Assembly (NCBI RefSeq): GCF_029094545.1
Contig: NZ_CP117835.1
Coordinates: forward strand, 1,716,001-1,780,000
Direction: 5' to 3'
Length of the DNA: 64,000 bases
DNA from: Alkalihalophilus pseudofirmus
GTDB lineage: Bacteria > Bacillota > Bacilli > Bacillales > Bacillaceae_D
The position numbers and the translations under genes were made by a program. A model generated the notes under the pieces. It did no database searches, was not told where the DNA came from, and worked only from the letters and a program-made list of their open reading frames with translations. Positions 2 through 61,175 of the stretch are shown here, piece after piece; the stretch's first letter is position 1, and every line of letters starts with the position of its first letter.

Positions 2-685
2 AATATTCAAGGATTTTCAGAAGCAACGATTAATAAGTTTATTGAGCAAGGTTTTATCAAGACAATTGATGATATCTACTCACTATCCAAACATGAAAAA
101 GATATTGTGAAATTGGATGGCTTTGGTAAGCGCTCATATAATAAGTTAATTCAAGCAATTGAAAGCTCAAAGAAAGTTAAATTCGGAAGTTTTATTTATG
201 CGTTAGGCATCCCACATGTAGGAAAGTCTACAGGAAAAACATTAGCTAAAGAATATACTCTTGAAACATTACCGAGTGCAGAGAAACGCTCTCTAATGCA
301 ATTAGATGACATTGGACAGGTAGTTGCAGAGAGTATTGTCAGATGGTTCTCTGTAGATACCAATGTGAATCTATATAAGAAGCTTATGGAAGTTGGCTTA
401 GAGTTTGTTGAGTCTGCATTAGTAAGTGAGGATAGCTCCATAGCAGGTAAGACCTTTGTTGTTACTGGTAGTGTTGGAGTATTTAAAAACAGAAAAGAGC
501 TTCAAGCAAGAATTGAAGAGCTTGGCGGTAAGGTGTCAGGATCTGTGAGTGCAAAGACCGATTATCTTATTTGCGACATGGATAACAGAACAAGCACTAA
601 ATTTAAAAAAGCAGAGAAGTTAAATATTCCAATTATAACAGAAGACATATTCCTAAGTATCATTGAGGGTGAGGTTAGTGAGTAG
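2..685 (+). CDS. NAD-dependent DNA ligase, C-terminal part (5' end outside window)
   Basis: The frame is open from the window edge, so this is the 3' part of a longer gene. Visible are four helix-hairpin-helix segments (QGFSEATINKF, LDGFGKRSYNKL, LGIPHVGKSTGKTLA, LDDIGQVVAESI) and then a BRCT domain starting at AGKTFVVTGS, the usual end of LigA-type ligases, which seal nicks with NAD. Adenylation and OB domains would lie upstream. The last ~35 codons (after TDYLIC, about 575-685) complete the BRCT fold but seem to have arrived with the adjacent endonuclease gene: a second, diverged copy of the same BRCT end lies at the 3' end of that gene. The stop overlaps the next start by 8 bases. SPbeta itself has an ATP-dependent ligase as far as I recall, so this is a different ligase type. 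Confidence 0.88.
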   Translation, partial: NIQGFSEATINKFIEQGFIKTIDDIYSLSKHEKDIVKLDGFGKRSYNKLIQAIESSKKVKFGSFIYALGIPHVGKSTGKTLAKEYTLETLPSAEKRSLMQLDDIGQVVAESIVRWFSVDTNVNLYKKLMEVGLEFVESALVSEDSSIAGKTFVVTGSVGVFKNRKELQARIEELGGKVSGSVSAKTDYLICDMDNRTSTKFKKAEKLNIPIITEDIFLSIIEGEVSE

Positions 686-2066
686 ACTTGCTACAAGTAT
701 AATTGGAGAAAAGTTTAATAGGCTTATCGTGGTGGATCAATATCAGATAAACGGAAAAGGTAAAACTATCTGTGAATGTAAATGCGATTGTGGCAGCAAA
801 AGATTACTGAAAGTAAACTACAGTGAGATTAAAAGGGGGAAAGTTAAGTCTTGCGGTTGTCTTGTAATAGAGAATACCAAAAAGGCAAACACTAAACATA
901 AAAATAGTAACTCTCATCTACATAATGTTTGGTGCAAAATGAAATCCAAATGCTACAATCACACTAGTAAGTACTTTAAAAACTATGGTGGCAAAGGGAT
1001 TGAAGTTTACAAATACTGGCTGGGTGTAAGTGGCTATGATAATTTTTATGACTGGAGCATGTCTAATGGATACTCTAAAGGATTATACCTTAGTAGAAAA
1101 GATAAGATGAAAGACTATTCACCAGATAATTGCCTGTGGGGAAAGTCTAAAGAAACATACAATAATGAATCCTTTAGTATGAAGAGTAAATTATCAATTA
1201 ACGGAAGTGAATACACTCTAGAGCAAATCTGTTCTTTGGTTGGAATATCCTTCAGGGCGGTAGTAGAGAGGATTAAAAATAACTATCTAGATGAGAGAAT
1301 GCTTATGACCACAATGGAACTCAAACAGATTAATCTCAAACAAAAGCACGATGCACTTAAGATGGAAGAATATGACTACACTCCCTTTACAGAAATAGGA
1401 AGTAACATGATTGCGGAAAAATCTAAATCAGGAATATATGAAATCAAAAACAATCTTAACAATAAAGTTTACGTTGGGAGTGCGGTCGATATTTTCACAA
1501 GGTGGAAAAATCATATAAATAATTTAAATAGAAACACTCACCATTCGAAACATTTACAAAATGCATGGAACAAGTATGGAGGAGGGAATTTCAAATTTAA
1601 AGTCTTAGAATATGTAGATAAAGATCACTTAATAAATAGAGAGCAATATTGGATGGATGAATTGAACGCCTACTCTAGTGACCTTGGATATAATATTCAG
1701 TCTATTGCAGGAAGTCCACTTGGAAGAAAAATGAGTGACGAGACAAAGCAAAACTGGAGTAAAAGTCGAAGAAAACCTGTAGTACAACTAAAAGAAGATG
1801 ATGGTATAGTATATCTTGTTGCTAGATGGGATGGGATTAAAGACGCAGCAAAACACCTGAATCTTCATGAGCAGAACATTTCACATTGCTGTAAAAATTT
1901 TCGTATACCTCATAGGTGTGGAGGATTTATATGGATGTATGCTAATGAGTTTGATAATTTATTAATTAATAATGATAAAGAGTCTAGCAGCTCGAAGAAC
2001 AAGAAAGCAAAAGATTTAGGTGTGCCTATTATTAATGAAGAAGAGTTTGTGAGTTTAATAAAATAA
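678..2066 (+). CDS. HNH/AP2-type plus GIY-YIG homing endonuclease with a ligase BRCT tail fused to its C-terminus
   Basis: Start taken as GTG 678, preceded by GAGGGTGAGG; the frame is open from TTG 663. The N-terminal half has a CxCDCG...SCGC zinc module and the YGGKGI...W...F..W..NGY...L.R.DK...Y.P.NC.W pattern of phage HNH/AP2-like endonucleases. The second half has a GIY-YIG core (IYEIKNNLNNKVYVGSAVD), a NUMOD3-like stretch (GSPLGRKMSDETKQNWSKSR) and a NUMOD1-like DNA-binding segment. The last ~32 residues do not belong to an endonuclease: SSSSKNKKAKDLGVPII followed by NEEEFVSLIK is a LigA BRCT ending, aligned without gaps to the end of the upstream ligase. This looks like the original ligase 3' end displaced by the insertion. 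It is a mobile element that probably cuts ligase genes. Confidence 0.8.
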   Translation: MSRLATSIIGEKFNRLIVVDQYQINGKGKTICECKCDCGSKRLLKVNYSEIKRGKVKSCGCLVIENTKKANTKHKNSNSHLHNVWCKMKSKCYNHTSKYFKNYGGKGIEVYKYWLGVSGYDNFYDWSMSNGYSKGLYLSRKDKMKDYSPDNCLWGKSKETYNNESFSMKSKLSINGSEYTLEQICSLVGISFRAVVERIKNNYLDERMLMTTMELKQINLKQKHDALKMEEYDYTPFTEIGSNMIAEKSKSGIYEIKNNLNNKVYVGSAVDIFTRWKNHINNLNRNTHHSKHLQNAWNKYGGGNFKFKVLEYVDKDHLINREQYWMDELNAYSSDLGYNIQSIAGSPLGRKMSDETKQNWSKSRRKPVVQLKEDDGIVYLVARWDGIKDAAKHLNLHEQNISHCCKNFRIPHRCGGFIWMYANEFDNLLINNDKESSSSKNKKAKDLGVPIINEEEFVSLIK

Positions 2067-3643: not shown

Positions 3644-6060
3644 ATGGCTATTGATCTATTGGGAATTGAACCGACTGTAGTGAGCAGGGACTTACGTGGG
3701 AAAATTGTAACTTTTTACGGTAAGTGATTGCCGTCTAATGTGGCAACACATTATGAGTAAACTTCTGAAAAAATCGGGAAGCCTAAGTCATTTTGATATG
3801 GTAATCCGACCTGAAGGCTAGTGTAAAAAACTGGTCAGGGGCAACGCATAGGAGTGAAAACTGTGGCGCACAACATCTTTTGGGAGAGGTGTTGCTGTGA
3901 GAAATAGAAATTATGAAAATAGAGAAGTAATGCATCAAAAGATTGTGATTGAAGGCAAAACATATGGTCAAACAGCTAAGGAGTTAGATTGTAGTGCAAC
4001 TGCAGTTAGGAACTGGGCAATCAAATTTGATTTTCCTAAAGAGCCTCTATACATAAAGCTTAATAGAGAACATGGGGAAAAAATAGAAAATGATTATACT
4101 CAAAACAATAAATTTTTTAGTGAAATAGCCGAAGACTATGGAGTCAACTGGCAAACAGTATCTGATGTTCTACGACACAGAAATATTAAAATAAGAACGA
4201 GATCAGATATTAAAAAGAAGCTAGACTCGGAAAACAAATGTAGAGTATATGACATCAATCGCAACTATTTTGAAACTTGGTCTAATAATATGGCATACAT
4301 ACTTGGTTTCATTTGTGCTGATGGATGTGTTCACACTCACTATGATGAAAAGTTAAATAAGTCAAAGAATGTTGTTATTATCTCTCTTGAAAAAAGCGAC
4401 ATTGAAATTTTACATAAAATAAAGGATGAGATCGGTTACGAAGGAGAAGTGCACACTTATAAAAGCAAAGGATTCAATAAAGAGAGCCACTATTGTACAC
4501 TGAGGATGAATTCAGTTCAATTAGTTAAAAGTTTGAAGTCTTTAGGTGTGACAGAGCGAAAGTCCTTAACTATAAAAATGCCTCCAGTACCAGAAGAATA
4601 TCAGCTAGATTTTATTAGAGGGTATTTTGATGGGGATGGGAGCGTGGGTGGTCAGTATCCTTCGAACTCATTTGGCATAAAAACTACCAAGCAGCAAATT
4701 AGGTTCAGACTGTTTAGTGGTAGTAGAGATATAATTGAATCAATGGAATTGATATTGAGAAATAAAGGACTAAAAAAGAAAAATATAAATAAGCAGCGAT
4801 CCGTCTATGAAATATTATACAGTACAAAGGAATCGATAAAAATATACAATATGATGTACTATGATGGATGTTTGCACTTATATAGAAAAAAGAAAAAATT
4901 TGATGAGTTAATTCAAACAAGAGAAAGCCAACTAGCAGCTAATTAATATTAATAAAAATAATTATGATACTGTGTGCCGCAGAATAAAACTCCCAAGAGG
5001 CAGAAGCATCCCAAGCGGATGAAAAGATATGCTGAGCTGGATCGGAATTGACCGATTGTAGATGGAGTGCCTGAGCTTCATTGATGAGGGAAACCTCCAG
5101 AAGTAAAGGATAAAAAGCCTTTACGATAACAATCTGGAACCAAAATCAGGAAAGACTACTAATGCAACCAAGTTTCCAAACAGTTTACTATTGGCGTTTG
5201 AGCGCGGATACAATGCATTAAACAATGTTCATGCACAACCAATTAACAAGTGGACTGAATTTAAGCAAGTTTTAAAGCAGTTAAACAATCCTAAAGTACG
5301 TGAGAAGTATGAAACGATTATTATTGATACTGCTGATATTGCTTGGGATTTAGCAGAACAGTACGTACTAAATCGTGAAGGCGTAGACAAGATTTCTGAT
5401 ATTCCTTTCGGTGGTGGATATAAATTACTTGAGAAAGAGGTTGATCAAGCCTTTCGCTCCATTCCTTTAATGGATTACGGTTTAGTAATGATTTCTCATA
5501 GTGAAGATAAGCAATTTACAGATGAGAGTGGTCAAGAATTTAATAAAATTGTTCCAACACTGGCTAAAAAAGCTCGAAAAATCGTGTTGCGTATGTCTGA
5601 TATCATCGGCTTTAGTAAGGCTGTAGAAACTGAAGAAGGTGTTGAGGTGCGACTTTATATGCGTGGGTCAACACGATTTGAGGCAGGATCAAGGTGGAAG
5701 CACACACCTAACTACGTGCCGTTTGATTATAATACTTTAGTTGGTGTCATCGCTGACGCAATCGAAAAGCAAGCCGAGGAAGATAAGGTGCAAGCGATTG
5801 ATGGTCATGTAAATGTTTATCAGTCTGTGACAGAAGATCGTCCTTTTGAAGAAGTGCGAAATGAAGCTACAAAGCTTTGTCAAGCAATTGCAGCTGAAGT
5901 TGAAGAAGGTGATGAGCGTAATGCTCGTGTAGCTAAGATCGGAAAAATCATTGAGAATCACTTAGGTAAAGGAAGAAACTTAAAATCAACAGAAGAGGAG
6001 CAAAAGGATTTAATTGAGTTAATTATTCAAGATTTAAACGAATATAAAGAATCATTGTAA
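3644..6060 (+). CDS. RecA/Sak4-like phage ATPase, split by a group I intron (exons 3644-3721 and 5137-6060)
   Basis: Exon 1 encodes 26 residues ending KIVTFYG. Exon 2 opens with EPKSGKTTNATKFPNS and LLLAFERGYNAL. Joined, the junction reads FYG|EPKSGKTT, a perfect Walker A loop (GxxxxGKT), giving a 333-aa protein. A Walker B-like IIIDTADIA follows about 55 residues later, then a motif resembling Sak4/RecA-like NTPases (VMISHSE). Sak4-type proteins are single-strand annealing or recombination ATPases encoded in phage replication clusters; SPbeta YorG has this position and size as I recall. The unspliced message gives only a 27-residue peptide, so splicing is required. SD AAAGGGG precedes ATG 3644. 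Confidence 0.78.
3722..5136 (+). mobile_element. Group I intron in the P-loop of the RecA-like ATPase gene
   Basis: The borders come from restoring the Walker A codons. The exon ends in ACGGT (3717-3721) and pairs with GCCGT at 3730-3734, giving a P1 helix with the conserved U-G pair at the 5' splice site; the intron's last base is G 5136. Both are group I hallmarks. The AT-poor, purine-rich flanks 3735-3890 and 4950-5136 look like folded catalytic core, interrupted by an endonuclease ORF. Length 1,415 bases. I did not resolve P3-P9. Confidence 0.85.
3897..4946 (+). CDS. LAGLIDADG homing endonuclease inside the group I intron
   Basis: 349 aa from GTG 3897, with GGGAGAGG upstream. Two LAGLIDADG-type helices are visible: MAYILGFICADGCV near residue 127 and LDFIRGYFDGDGSV near residue 239, as in single-chain double-motif endonucleases. 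The first ~110 residues hold two helix-turn-helix-like repeats (GQTAKELDCSATAVRNWA and FSEIAEDYGVNWQTVSDVLR), probably extra DNA-contact modules. It would cut intronless alleles at the conserved P-loop codons and spread the intron. Confidence 0.88.
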   Translation: MRNRNYENREVMHQKIVIEGKTYGQTAKELDCSATAVRNWAIKFDFPKEPLYIKLNREHGEKIENDYTQNNKFFSEIAEDYGVNWQTVSDVLRHRNIKIRTRSDIKKKLDSENKCRVYDINRNYFETWSNNMAYILGFICADGCVHTHYDEKLNKSKNVVIISLEKSDIEILHKIKDEIGYEGEVHTYKSKGFNKESHYCTLRMNSVQLVKSLKSLGVTERKSLTIKMPPVPEEYQLDFIRGYFDGDGSVGGQYPSNSFGIKTTKQQIRFRLFSGSRDIIESMELILRNKGLKKKNINKQRSVYEILYSTKESIKIYNMMYYDGCLHLYRKKKKFDELIQTRESQLAAN

Positions 6061-20072: not shown

Positions 20073-20540
20073 ATGGGTATTGATTACTATTCTTGTGAAG
20101 TTTGCGGTGATTCCTTCCCTGACGTAATTGACTATGGATACTGTAGTAATTGTGAAGAGGTATTATGTGGAGACTGTCGTGATGCAATGGGACAGAAGTA
20201 CGGTGTGCTAGGTGAGGATCATGAAAAAGCAGATGATTTCGGAGAAGAAGCACCTGAACATTGTGACTCATGTTACAAGCCAGAAAGGATTAAGTATCAT
20301 ACAGTTGTGGTTAGTGGAACTTATCGACACTATAAAAACAAAAAGAAATACAAAGTTATTGAGACAGCTACGCACACAGAATCAGAAGAGTATCTTGTGA
20401 TCTATTATTGCTTAGATGATTTGTATGGAGAGCATAAAATGTTTGCTAGACCGAAAGAGATGTTTGAAGAGGGATTAACTATTGAGAATCAAACAGTGCC
20501 AAGATTTGAGCTATTATCACCCAAACTTAAGAGTGACTAA
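20073..20540 (+). CDS. Multi-CxxC zinc protein, 155 aa
   Basis: SD AAAGAGG before ATG. Residues 8-70 hold CEVCGDSFPD, CSNCEEVLCGDC and HCDSC, eight cysteines spaced like a double treble-clef or RING/FYVE-like zinc module. The C-terminal half is a small strand-rich domain. Could bind nucleic acid or protein; no family recognised. Confidence 0.65.
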   Translation: MGIDYYSCEVCGDSFPDVIDYGYCSNCEEVLCGDCRDAMGQKYGVLGEDHEKADDFGEEAPEHCDSCYKPERIKYHTVVVSGTYRHYKNKKKYKVIETATHTESEEYLVIYYCLDDLYGEHKMFARPKEMFEEGLTIENQTVPRFELLSPKLKSD

Positions 20541-20593
20541 GCTCAATAAAGCAGCAATTTTAAAGTAAATAAAAATTAAGGTGGTTAATTAAC

Positions 20594-22269: not shown

Positions 22270-22944
22270 ATGAACAAAATGGCTAAGAGGTTGAAGTGGC
22301 TTAGAGGTAAGCATAAGCTTGCTCAAAAGGAAGTGGCAGCGGAACTAGACATTTCAATGGGAGGATATCAGAAAATAGAATATGGGGAAAGACTCCCAAG
22401 TGTTGAAGTGCTGGCGAGCTTAGCTGAACTGTTTGATGTGAGTATTGATTTTCTAGTAGGGAATATAAATCAAACGAATCAAATGCTAAACCTAAAAGAA
22501 GAAATCATTCGAATGTCTGGAGCAAAAGATGTTGATTTAGTACTTTCTATGATACACGATTTGCCAGAAGAGGAAGAGAACGAAGCGTGGAAGCACTTAA
22601 ATGAAATGCAAAATGAATTTTATGGTTTCATAGAGTCGGTTGAATACAAGTTAAAAGAAGATATGGAGAGTTATTTTGATCTATTGCTCGATATGCCCGA
22701 TGCCAATATTAAGGAAGATAGTATAGTAATTCTAGCTCATCCATTCGATTTCTATATTCAGAATTCATTAGTTGGCGATAAATATATTATTATGCTAAAC
22801 AACAGACTAGTTCATGGAGTTGAAGTATTTAGAACTGATGATTTAGGCGGTGCTGAAGAAGTCCGACATGAATTAGAAGGTATGTTCAGAATTGTACCTA
22901 GAAGCTACAGCGAACTTATTAACAGTAAACTTAGAGGGAGATAA
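22270..22944 (+). CDS. XRE-family transcriptional regulator with long C-terminal domain
   Basis: 224 aa. The first 65 residues are a Cro/cI-type helix-turn-helix (RLKWLRGKHKLAQKEVAAEL, DISMGGYQKIEYGERLPSVE, LAELFDVSIDFLVG). Residues ~75-224 are an acidic helical and strand region without the Ser-Lys dyad of LexA-like peptidases. It sits next to divergent promoters and two small minus-strand genes, an arrangement fitting a phage decision or maintenance regulator. The CCCC-TTAGA-GGGG hairpin just before the start may affect its expression. Confidence 0.8.
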   Translation: MNKMAKRLKWLRGKHKLAQKEVAAELDISMGGYQKIEYGERLPSVEVLASLAELFDVSIDFLVGNINQTNQMLNLKEEIIRMSGAKDVDLVLSMIHDLPEEEENEAWKHLNEMQNEFYGFIESVEYKLKEDMESYFDLLLDMPDANIKEDSIVILAHPFDFYIQNSLVGDKYIIMLNNRLVHGVEVFRTDDLGGAEEVRHELEGMFRIVPRSYSELINSKLRGR

Positions 22945-59490: not shown

Positions 59491-60231
59491 ATGAAATTAC
59501 AAGATAAAGTAGCAGTTATTACAGGTGCAGGCCGTGGAATCGGTGAAGCAACAGCATTTAAATTTGCTAAAGAAGGCGCAAAAGTGGTTGTAGCTGATAT
59601 GAATGAAGAGGAAATTAACGCAACGGTTGCAGCAGTAAAAGAAATGGGTGCAGAAGCGACTGGCTTTGTTGTGAATGTTACAAACCGTGAAGAAGTGAAA
59701 AACTTAATGGCTCATGCGGTAGAGACATTCGGCCGTGTTGATGTTGTTGTAAATAACGCTGGGATTACAGCTGATGCACAACTTCTAAAAATGACAGACG
59801 AGCAGTGGGACCGTGTGATTGATGTAAACCTTAAAGGTGTATTCATGGTATCTCAAGAAGCAGCAGCGATCATGAAAGAGCAGCAAGGCGGCGTAATCTT
59901 AAATGCTTCTTCTGTTGTTGGTTCTTTTGGTAACTTCGGTCAAACAAACTACGCTGCAACAAAATGGGGCGTTAACGGTATGACAAAAACATGGGCAAAA
60001 GAACTTGGCCGTTTCAATGTACGAGTTAATGCAGTAGCTCCAGGGTTCATCTTAACGCCAATGACAGCAAAAATGCCTGAAAAAGTTTTAGATATGATGA
60101 AAGATAAGTCTGTTCTAAACGATTTAGGAACGCCAGAAGATATTGCAAATGGATATGCATTCCTTGCATCTGATGAAGCTCGCTTCATTACAGGAACGAT
60201 CCTTAGCATCGATGGCGGGGTAGTCATTTAA
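59491..60231 (+). CDS. SDR dehydrogenase (3-hydroxybutyrate dehydrogenase / FabG-like)
   Basis: 246 aa; CTAGGAGGAACAATT before ATG. Classical short-chain reductase: VITGAGRGIGEATAFK, NNAGIT, catalytic Ser in NASSVVGSFG and Tyr-Lys in TNYAATKWG, end ITGTILSIDGG. Sequence alone fits 3-oxoacyl-ACP or acetoacetyl-CoA reductase; the operon with permease, CoA-transferase and thiolase suggests 3-hydroxybutyrate oxidation. Confidence 0.85.
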   Translation: MKLQDKVAVITGAGRGIGEATAFKFAKEGAKVVVADMNEEEINATVAAVKEMGAEATGFVVNVTNREEVKNLMAHAVETFGRVDVVVNNAGITADAQLLKMTDEQWDRVIDVNLKGVFMVSQEAAAIMKEQQGGVILNASSVVGSFGNFGQTNYAATKWGVNGMTKTWAKELGRFNVRVNAVAPGFILTPMTAKMPEKVLDMMKDKSVLNDLGTPEDIANGYAFLASDEARFITGTILSIDGGVVI

Positions 60232-60248
60232 TTTCATAACGTATAGAT

Positions 60249-60284
60249 AAAACAGCTGTTTAGTAAGCAGCTGTTTTATTTTTT
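60249..60284 (+). terminator. Terminator of the sigma-54 operon
   Basis: AAAACAGCTG-TTTAGTAAG-CAGCTGTTTT then ATTTTTT. Confidence 0.85.
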
Positions 60285-60404
60285 CCAAAAATGAGCAAGA
60301 AAACCCTTTCATAATTCTGAATAGTTCGTCATAATAGAATGAGAGAGTGAGTGATGGAGATAAGATCGGAGTCAATTATGTAATAATTGATGGGGGTATG
60401 GTCT

Positions 60405-61175
60405 ATGGAGAAGAAAACAGTAATCGTTACAGGCGGCAGTAATGGAATGGGTAAAGCAATGGCTAAGAAATTTGCAAGCCAAGGTGCATACGTCACGATC
60501 AGCGGACGTGATGAAGAACGTTTATTACAAGCTAAAAAGGAAATTGAGACCTTTGAGGGACAAGTCCTCCCTGTCGTAATGGATGTACGTGACCCGGAAA
60601 AAGTACAACATATGGTCGATGTGACAAAAGAAACATTCGGTCAAATTGATTATTTAGTAAATAATGCAGCAGGAAACTTCCTCGTACGAGCTGAAGAGCT
60701 CTCTGAGAATGGATGGAAGGCTGTCATTGATATTGTTTTAAATGGTACATGGTATTGTACACAAGCTGTAGGTAAGGAATGGATTGCTAATAAACAGCAA
60801 GGGTCAATCACTAATATCATTGCGACATACGCCTGGACAGCAGGCCCTGGTGTAGTGCACTCAGCAAGCGCAAAAGCAGGCGTTCTTGCAATGACACGTA
60901 CGTTAGCCGTAGAATGGGGCAGCCAGTATGGCATTCGTTTAAATGCAATTGCTCCAGGTCCAATTGAGGATACGGGCGGCGCAGAGCGCTTAATTATGAA
61001 TGAAGCAGCTCATAAAAAGGTGATCAACAGTATCCCTGCGAGAAGATTTGGGAAAGTAGAAGAAGTAGCAGGCCTTGCATCGTTCTTATTTTCTGAGGAA
61101 GCGAAATACATTAACGGTGACTGTATCACAATCGATGGCGGTCAATGGTTAAACGGTGCCTCTTTTCAATCGTAA
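60405..61175 (+). CDS. fadH: 2,4-dienoyl-CoA reductase-like SDR (YkuF/FadH)
   Basis: 256 aa from ATG 60405. SDR with VIVTGGSNGMGKAMAKKF, NNAAGNFLVRAEELS and VHSASAKAGVLAMTRTLAVE, where the usual Tyr of YxxxK is replaced as in dienoyl-CoA reductases; APGPIEDTGGAERL is typical of the YkuF group. Role in oxidation of unsaturated fatty acids. Not part of the upstream operon (terminator between them). Confidence 0.85.
   Translation: MEKKTVIVTGGSNGMGKAMAKKFASQGAYVTISGRDEERLLQAKKEIETFEGQVLPVVMDVRDPEKVQHMVDVTKETFGQIDYLVNNAAGNFLVRAEELSENGWKAVIDIVLNGTWYCTQAVGKEWIANKQQGSITNIIATYAWTAGPGVVHSASAKAGVLAMTRTLAVEWGSQYGIRLNAIAPGPIEDTGGAERLIMNEAAHKKVINSIPARRFGKVEEVAGLASFLFSEEAKYINGDCITIDGGQWLNGASFQS

Follow-up and report, generated by a model that had tools for sequence, protein, structure and literature searches.

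A homing endonuclease that brought with it a diverged replacement 3' end has most probably (probability about 0.8) inserted after ...TDYLI in a prophage NAD-dependent DNA ligase gene of Alkalihalophilus pseudofirmus, displacing the native end of that gene. The ligase lies at the beginning of the 64,000 nucleotides that were analysed, here called the window. The mobile element would extend from about 572 to about 1962, and would consist of a replacement for the last 37 ligase codons together with a homing endonuclease of the GIY-YIG/HNH type. It would have entered the BRCT domain of the ligase after the codons ...TDYLI, such that the ligase now reads into the replacement end and keeps its full length, while the native end would have been moved about 1.4 kb downstream, where it forms the in-frame C-terminus of the endonuclease.

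The 3' part of the ligase gene occupies positions 1-685 on the forward strand (ORF map; NCBIfam LigA; Pfam HHH_2 and BRCT), its frame in the window running from 2 to 685 with the stop codon at 683-685. The gene starts 1,280 nt upstream of the window start (L087:9722), and the whole ORF (L087:9722-11686) encodes 654 aa. Codons up to 571 (...TDYLI) belong to the original gene body. The present, replacement end, identified by comparison with 165 ligase ends, comprises 37 codons and a stop at 572-685 (forward strand), and gives the C-terminal sequence DYLI-CDMDNRTSTKFKKAEKLNIPIITEDIFLSIIEGEVSE. This inserted piece completes the ligase in frame, and the resulting 654-aa chimera exceeds the NCBIfam cut-offs for LigA in both TIGR00575 (554 bits, cut-off 444, aa 15-643) and NF005932 (566 bits, cut-off 369, aa 10-647). 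The final domain is BRCT by Pfam, with a divergent tail. No excess of promoter-like sites was seen in 400-2700 (8 found, 9.2 expected).

The homing-endonuclease ORF (678-2066, forward strand) starts with a GTG at 678 which overlaps the ligase stop, with in-frame alternative starts at TTG 663 and GTG 669, and it matches phage HNH and homing-endonuclease PHROGs. Its N-terminal part (aa 7-190; 696-1247, forward strand) is related to phage HNH endonucleases (phrog_374, E 9.9e-47). This is followed by a GIY-YIG nuclease domain of the I-TevI type (aa 250-341; 1425-1700, forward strand; Pfam E 5.3e-10, PDB 1mk0 E 3.6e-20, TIGR01453 116 bits with a cut-off of 56), so that the catalytic domain expected of a GIY-YIG homing endonuclease is recognised by Pfam, PDB, PHROG and NCBIfam profiles alike. 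Both nuclease domains are intact by profile, and a weak NUMOD-like stretch falls below its Pfam cut-off. Downstream of the endonuclease and ahead of the following gene, the prophage carries a tRNA-Arg (anticodon CCT) at 2323-2395. The description of the phage as SPbeta-like, made in an earlier note on this DNA, can be kept only in so far as a downstream gene shares 63-66% DNA identity with 11 SPbeta-group records.

At its C-terminus, the endonuclease ORF carries the final ~34 residues of a phage NAD-ligase, so that pieces of ligase end flank the nuclease part on both sides (ORF map, PHROG). This displaced and probably native ligase end is fused in frame to the endonuclease C-terminus at 1959-2066 (forward strand; left border uncertain, about 1950-1968), as seen from PHROG ligase profiles, tail comparison and DNA alignment, and has the sequence LLINNDKESSSSKNKKAKDLGVPIINEEEFVSLIK. 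Residues 427-461 match positions 620-653 of the 656 in the NAD-ligase profile phrog_3869 (E 1.2e-5), and the tail from aa 427 also matches phrog_3498 (positions 220-252 of 256, E 3.7e-4) and phrog_2561 (positions 129-161 of 167, E 6.7e-4). The earlier note had reported two BRCT endings that can be aligned without gaps, one in the ligase and one in the endonuclease, and these are indeed present, with the PHROG NAD-ligase profiles matching the endonuclease tail. It had called them about half identical; in the DNA 51/99 nt agree, and at the protein level the identity is 42% (14/33 aa). Both ends are of ligase origin, and the parts of the insert lie in the order described above. The insertion site would be within the BRCT domain; the exact point after TDYLIC, given in the earlier note, did not stand, since relatives have N at that last position and the shared part therefore ends at DYLI (window 571).

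To decide which end is native, ligases were collected from genome contigs (80 kept) and viral contigs (80 kept), and the two tails were compared with the ligase ends of 165 loci. This set includes four ligA genes from chromosomes of the genus, and also L243, a locus with its own insertion. The endonuclease tail outscores the present ligase end against all 165 of these other ligase ends (mean 100 vs 64), which largely supports the proposal of an element carrying both its own replacement end and an endonuclease. The first relatives, L001-L005, have an uninterrupted ligase frame ending in (L/I)NND..S-S-KN--AK-L, which is the endonuclease-tail type, as the earlier note had predicted for uninterrupted alleles. 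The nearest relative by ligase body, L004 (65% identical), has an end that shares 23/33 aa and 71/99 nt with the displaced end, vs 14/33 aa and 53/99 nt with the present ligase end. Because of the 165/165 scores and the L004 match, the displaced end behaves as native and the present end as an import, a status which we infer from 33 residues.

The converse, that the present ligase end is native and that the endonuclease brought in a foreign ligase end, either as a remnant of a previous host gene or as a DNA-binding part, is improbable. In its favour, the displaced end matches L179, L098 and L117 better (25/33 aa) than it does the nearest body relative, L004 (23/33), and in a helicase locus described below (L081) it is the end on the gene that resembles relatives. 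Against this, the preference of ligase ends for the endonuclease tail is without exception and includes the nearest ligases by body, L004 and L001. In addition, half a BRCT domain would hardly fold alone. Among 180 homing-endonuclease (HEG) ORFs checked, a number which includes the window ORF and its copies (four), no other has this tail, the best other C-terminus scoring 36 vs 165 for the window endonuclease. Two findings had been named in advance as telling against a replacement, namely related ligases that end like the present one where nothing has inserted, and this endonuclease tail in unrelated places. Neither turned up, as none of the 165 ligases ends like the present one and the best other HEG C-terminus is the one just given.

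Replacement of a native end thus accounts best for the comparison. Counted against it are the lack of a close uninvaded allele and of a donor for the present end, the better match of the displaced end to L179 and L098 than to the nearest body relative, which makes its lineage uncertain, and the exception of the L081 helicase. A close uninvaded ligase allele was not found, the nearest ligase being 62% identical over the searched part, and because of this the borders of the insert are not base-exact. Among 41 family genomes, the ligase (E<=1e-45) and the endonuclease (E<=1e-20) were each found only in their own genome (1/41). A looser search of the four genus genomes among the 41 gave, besides the prophage ligase, only matches of 38% identity, which we take to be chromosomal ligA, and no other endonuclease. 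For the present ligase end, the top phage match reached 54.5% over 44 aa and no donor was found; a donor resembling L217/L213 was considered and rejected, as the top scores for the present end were scattered.

A spliced intron running from ~570 to ~1965, whose removal would give the ligase its native end, would explain the same arrangement, and it is true that joining DYLI to INND restores the protein exactly. When junctions were enumerated, the six best, at 566-571/1962-1967, all restored DYLINND. The GIY-YIG domain also belongs to a subfamily of group I intron endonucleases (TIGR01453). We nevertheless consider splicing very unlikely. No Rfam intron family was found in 300-2400 at E<=1 or in the whole window at gathering scores, and of 242 frame-keeping junctions with group I borders (U before, G at the end), none gives the exact join, the best scoring 174 vs 188. 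A group I intron was therefore rejected, having neither an intron RNA core in Rfam nor an exact U/G junction. The BRCT domain, moreover, is already complete in the unspliced frame (ORF map, Pfam), and folding of 560-690 (z-score 1.17) gave no support for an intron. An intein is excluded by the frame break between the two proteins, because the ligase stops at 683-685 and the endonuclease lies in another frame with its own start. That neither an intron nor an intein is needed, as the earlier note had held, is thus consistent with the missing intron family, the inexact U/G junctions and the separate frames. A missing Rfam match is weak evidence by itself, since the likely intron in a nearby P-loop gene was missed too. 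This gene seems to be interrupted between TFYG and EPKSGKTT (window 3720-5150) by ~1.4 kb containing a LAGLIDADG ORF (3897-4946, Pfam E 8.2e-10); the interruption is likely an intron, and it matches no Rfam family even at E<=1.

If the replacement reading is right, the endonuclease would be translated from the ligase message by way of the stop/start overlap, and it would cut ligase alleles which keep the native join of TDYLI to NND, near that join. The break could then be repaired by copying the replacement end and the endonuclease from an element-bearing genome, with the ligase body providing homology on the left, and the displaced end and downstream DNA providing it on the right. Carriers would be immune owing to the interrupted join and the different sequence of the new end. 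With cutting, homing, immunity and coupled translation of this kind, the ligase element would in effect be a natural home-and-rescue element.

The closest known parallels come from fungal mitochondria, as the earlier note had pointed out. Mobile ORFs with a foreign carboxy-terminal are documented there in atp6 of Allomyces macrogynus, and in atp6, atp9, cox2 and nad3 of Glomus (PMC3630166, accessible portion). In those cases, a conserved gene has received an endonuclease ORF close to its 3' end and is completed by a foreign end, and its native end lies displaced downstream, closer to relatives than the inserted end is. The ligase locus shares with the Allomyces atp6 type an ORF inside the coding region near its end, in-frame completion of the gene, and a displaced end closer to relatives (33 residues). 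It differs in that the gene is a prophage DNA ligase, the endonuclease is an HNH-type plus GIY-YIG protein, and this protein carries the displaced end as a fusion. The ligase element is thus apparently a prophage example of the fungal end-replacing type, and it does not seem to be the only phage HEG of this kind.

The free-standing seg and mob endonucleases of phage T4 likewise do without an intron or intein and use similar nuclease families, sitting between genes or in a gene split into two proteins (PMC2988022, accessible portion). Unlike these, as they appear in that portion, the ligase element replaces the gene end and the ligase gene stays whole; intergenic HEGs of the seg/mob type lack duplicated gene ends, which the ligase locus has. 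According to a 2026 preprint, free-standing HEGs are as a rule confined to sites between genes, since insertion would otherwise break the host gene (PMC13405050). HEGs and HEG islands in phage ICP1 resemble the ligase element in lying beside essential phage genes and in the exchange of neighbouring sequence (PMC10448857, accessible portion), and end replacement is not described in the available parts of the sources on ICP1 HEGs (PMC10448857) or on Skunavirus HNH (PMC12724721). No published report of this layout in phages was found among the matches listed, which covered titles and abstract openings with subscription literature mostly outside coverage, and the end-replacing layout is likely new in phages. 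An engineered parallel is the home-and-rescue drive HomeR, which, in the accessible portion of its description, is artificial, Cas9-based and built in Drosophila (PMC7968924), whereas the ligase element would be natural.

Bringing a substitute gene end would be another way for a free-standing HEG to use coding sites. Were this general, it would widen the set of targets, explain chimeric phage gene ends, make the phage and fungal cases comparable, and give engineered home-and-rescue drives a counterpart in nature. There is a warning for annotation as well, since a short ORF next to an HEG can be the displaced end of a gene.

The flanks of other homing-endonuclease loci were scanned for the same kind of scar, defined as a peptide encoded in 800 nt on one side of the HEG which resembles one from the other side. 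The input consisted of HEG-like ORFs with a minimum length of 90 aa, which are related to one of the two halves of the window endonuclease, to the LAGLIDADG ORF of the window or to the GIY-YIG domain of L013. Seven loci had been excluded in advance (L292, L293, the window copies L086-L088, and the copies L258 and L287). After removal of 16 ORFs with short flanks or at contig edges and 34 redundant ones, 174 HEG ORFs were reduced to 124 in 110 loci, of which 118 are on viral contigs, four in phage records and two in the window. At a score of at least 65, a threshold chosen after the distributions were seen, a duplicated gene end flanks 10/124 HEG ORFs (~8%), compared with 0/124 when one flank was reversed and 1/372 with codon-shuffled flanks. 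At 60 the corresponding counts are 13/124, 4/124 and 5/372, and at 55 they are 18/124, 9/124 and 12/372.

Seven of the ten positives are 3' duplications and three are mirror-image 5' cases. The 3' cases are the window itself (16/36 identical, copy fused to the HEG), L282 (41/52), L283 (24/30, whose upstream copy, too, is in a short frame, preceded by an in-frame stop), L013 (43/145, where the contig edge truncates the upstream gene and the second copy is a 171-aa frame starting where the HEG ends), L268 (21/34), L081 (16/34, a helicase by PHROG) and L044 (17/23). In the 5' cases L262:2798-3947 (31/47) and L072:4452-5468 (18/43), a copy of the gene start lies ahead of the endonuclease or inside its beginning, and the gene restarts after it; in L071:1335-2190 (17/24), of which L077 is a near copy, the first part of the endonuclease is a copy of the start of the gene that follows. 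The second copy in nine of the ten is either a short frame of 32-59 aa (seven) or fused to the HEG (L071 and the window). From their sequences, the genes affected can be read as a clamp-loader-like start (L262), a RuvC-like gene (L283), a methyltransferase (L268) and a nucleotidyltransferase (L072). Single positives could be assembly joins, since 9/10 are metagenome-derived viral contigs.

The L081 helicase runs counter to the rule of a native displaced copy. There, the on-gene end was closer than the displaced copy to relatives in 29/29 readable cases (1 of 30 was unreadable), and the displaced copy is presumably decayed or foreign; for this reason, the equation of displaced with native is shown for the ligase only. 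Two further loci fall below the threshold but have a similar look. In L057:4788-6364 (score 53), an antisense GIY-YIG HEG lies between the gene-end copies DYLADGNGGR and DYMADGNGSR. The second ligase, L243:3690-6700 (score 60 in an earlier scan), has two HNH-type pieces after the gene and then a short ligase-end remnant in another frame. As a separate observation, LQFQNADKGI is the ending of both neighbouring ORFs at L083:6302-7652.

Judged from these flanks, the ligase element is probably not isolated among phage HEGs, and the word rare, which the earlier note had used for this form of homing, may need revision because 10/124 scanned HEG ORFs have end duplications. We think it fairly probable that phages hold widespread natural home-and-rescue elements, the ligase element included, in which free-standing HEGs attack the coding sequence of important genes close to one end or the other and bring a diverged copy of that end, or of the whole gene as in ICP1 RNase H. 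Such elements would need neither intron, intein nor intergenic site, because they bring a diverged copy of the end they attack.

Another origin for the two ligase ends would be that this end was duplicated in tandem and the endonuclease inserted later between the copies, or else they could be an assembly artefact. Other routes to duplicated ends do exist, and neighbouring paralogues mimic the pattern, but the two copies differ at 48/99 nt, the 4.24 Mb source genome is a 2-contig assembly which is 99.99% complete, and the pattern recurs beside HEGs at unrelated genes. We give this origin a very small chance, and return to end replacement by an HEG.

Among named phages, ICP1 (NC_015157; L293:20434-22444) has the HEG gp53, then gp54 and a complete RNase H gene, gp55, between remnants of an RNase H start and end. 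The start remnant (20434-20547) matches gp55 residues 4-40 with a score of 68, and the end remnant, gp56 (22286-22444), matches residues 99-151 with a score of 167. An older RNase H gene looks to have received a whole-gene replacement together with an HEG. Its middle part was not found, nor was an uninvaded allele, as each of the 82 records matching the region contains 80% of it or more. In T4, mobC and nrdG (L292:42896-43538) have 19 of their first 21 nt in common, with both differences synonymous, vs 11/30 just upstream, and this may be a small 5' scar; mobC did not stand out in the flank scan (score 40). Nothing notable was seen by that scan at T4 mobA, segF, segA, mobB and I-TevII, or at ICP1 gp28, gp80 and gp59, and 6/7 T4 GIY-YIG loci found by Pfam were not above control level.

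The scan can be fooled by paralogues, as the T4 locus L331 has a flank score of 74. This locus is presumably segD between the paralogous T4 capsid genes 23 and 24, and it was rejected as an end-replacement case, being a false positive of the type produced by paralogous neighbours. Elsewhere in the window (59491-61175), two adjacent ORFs of 246 and 262 aa resemble tandem paralogues.
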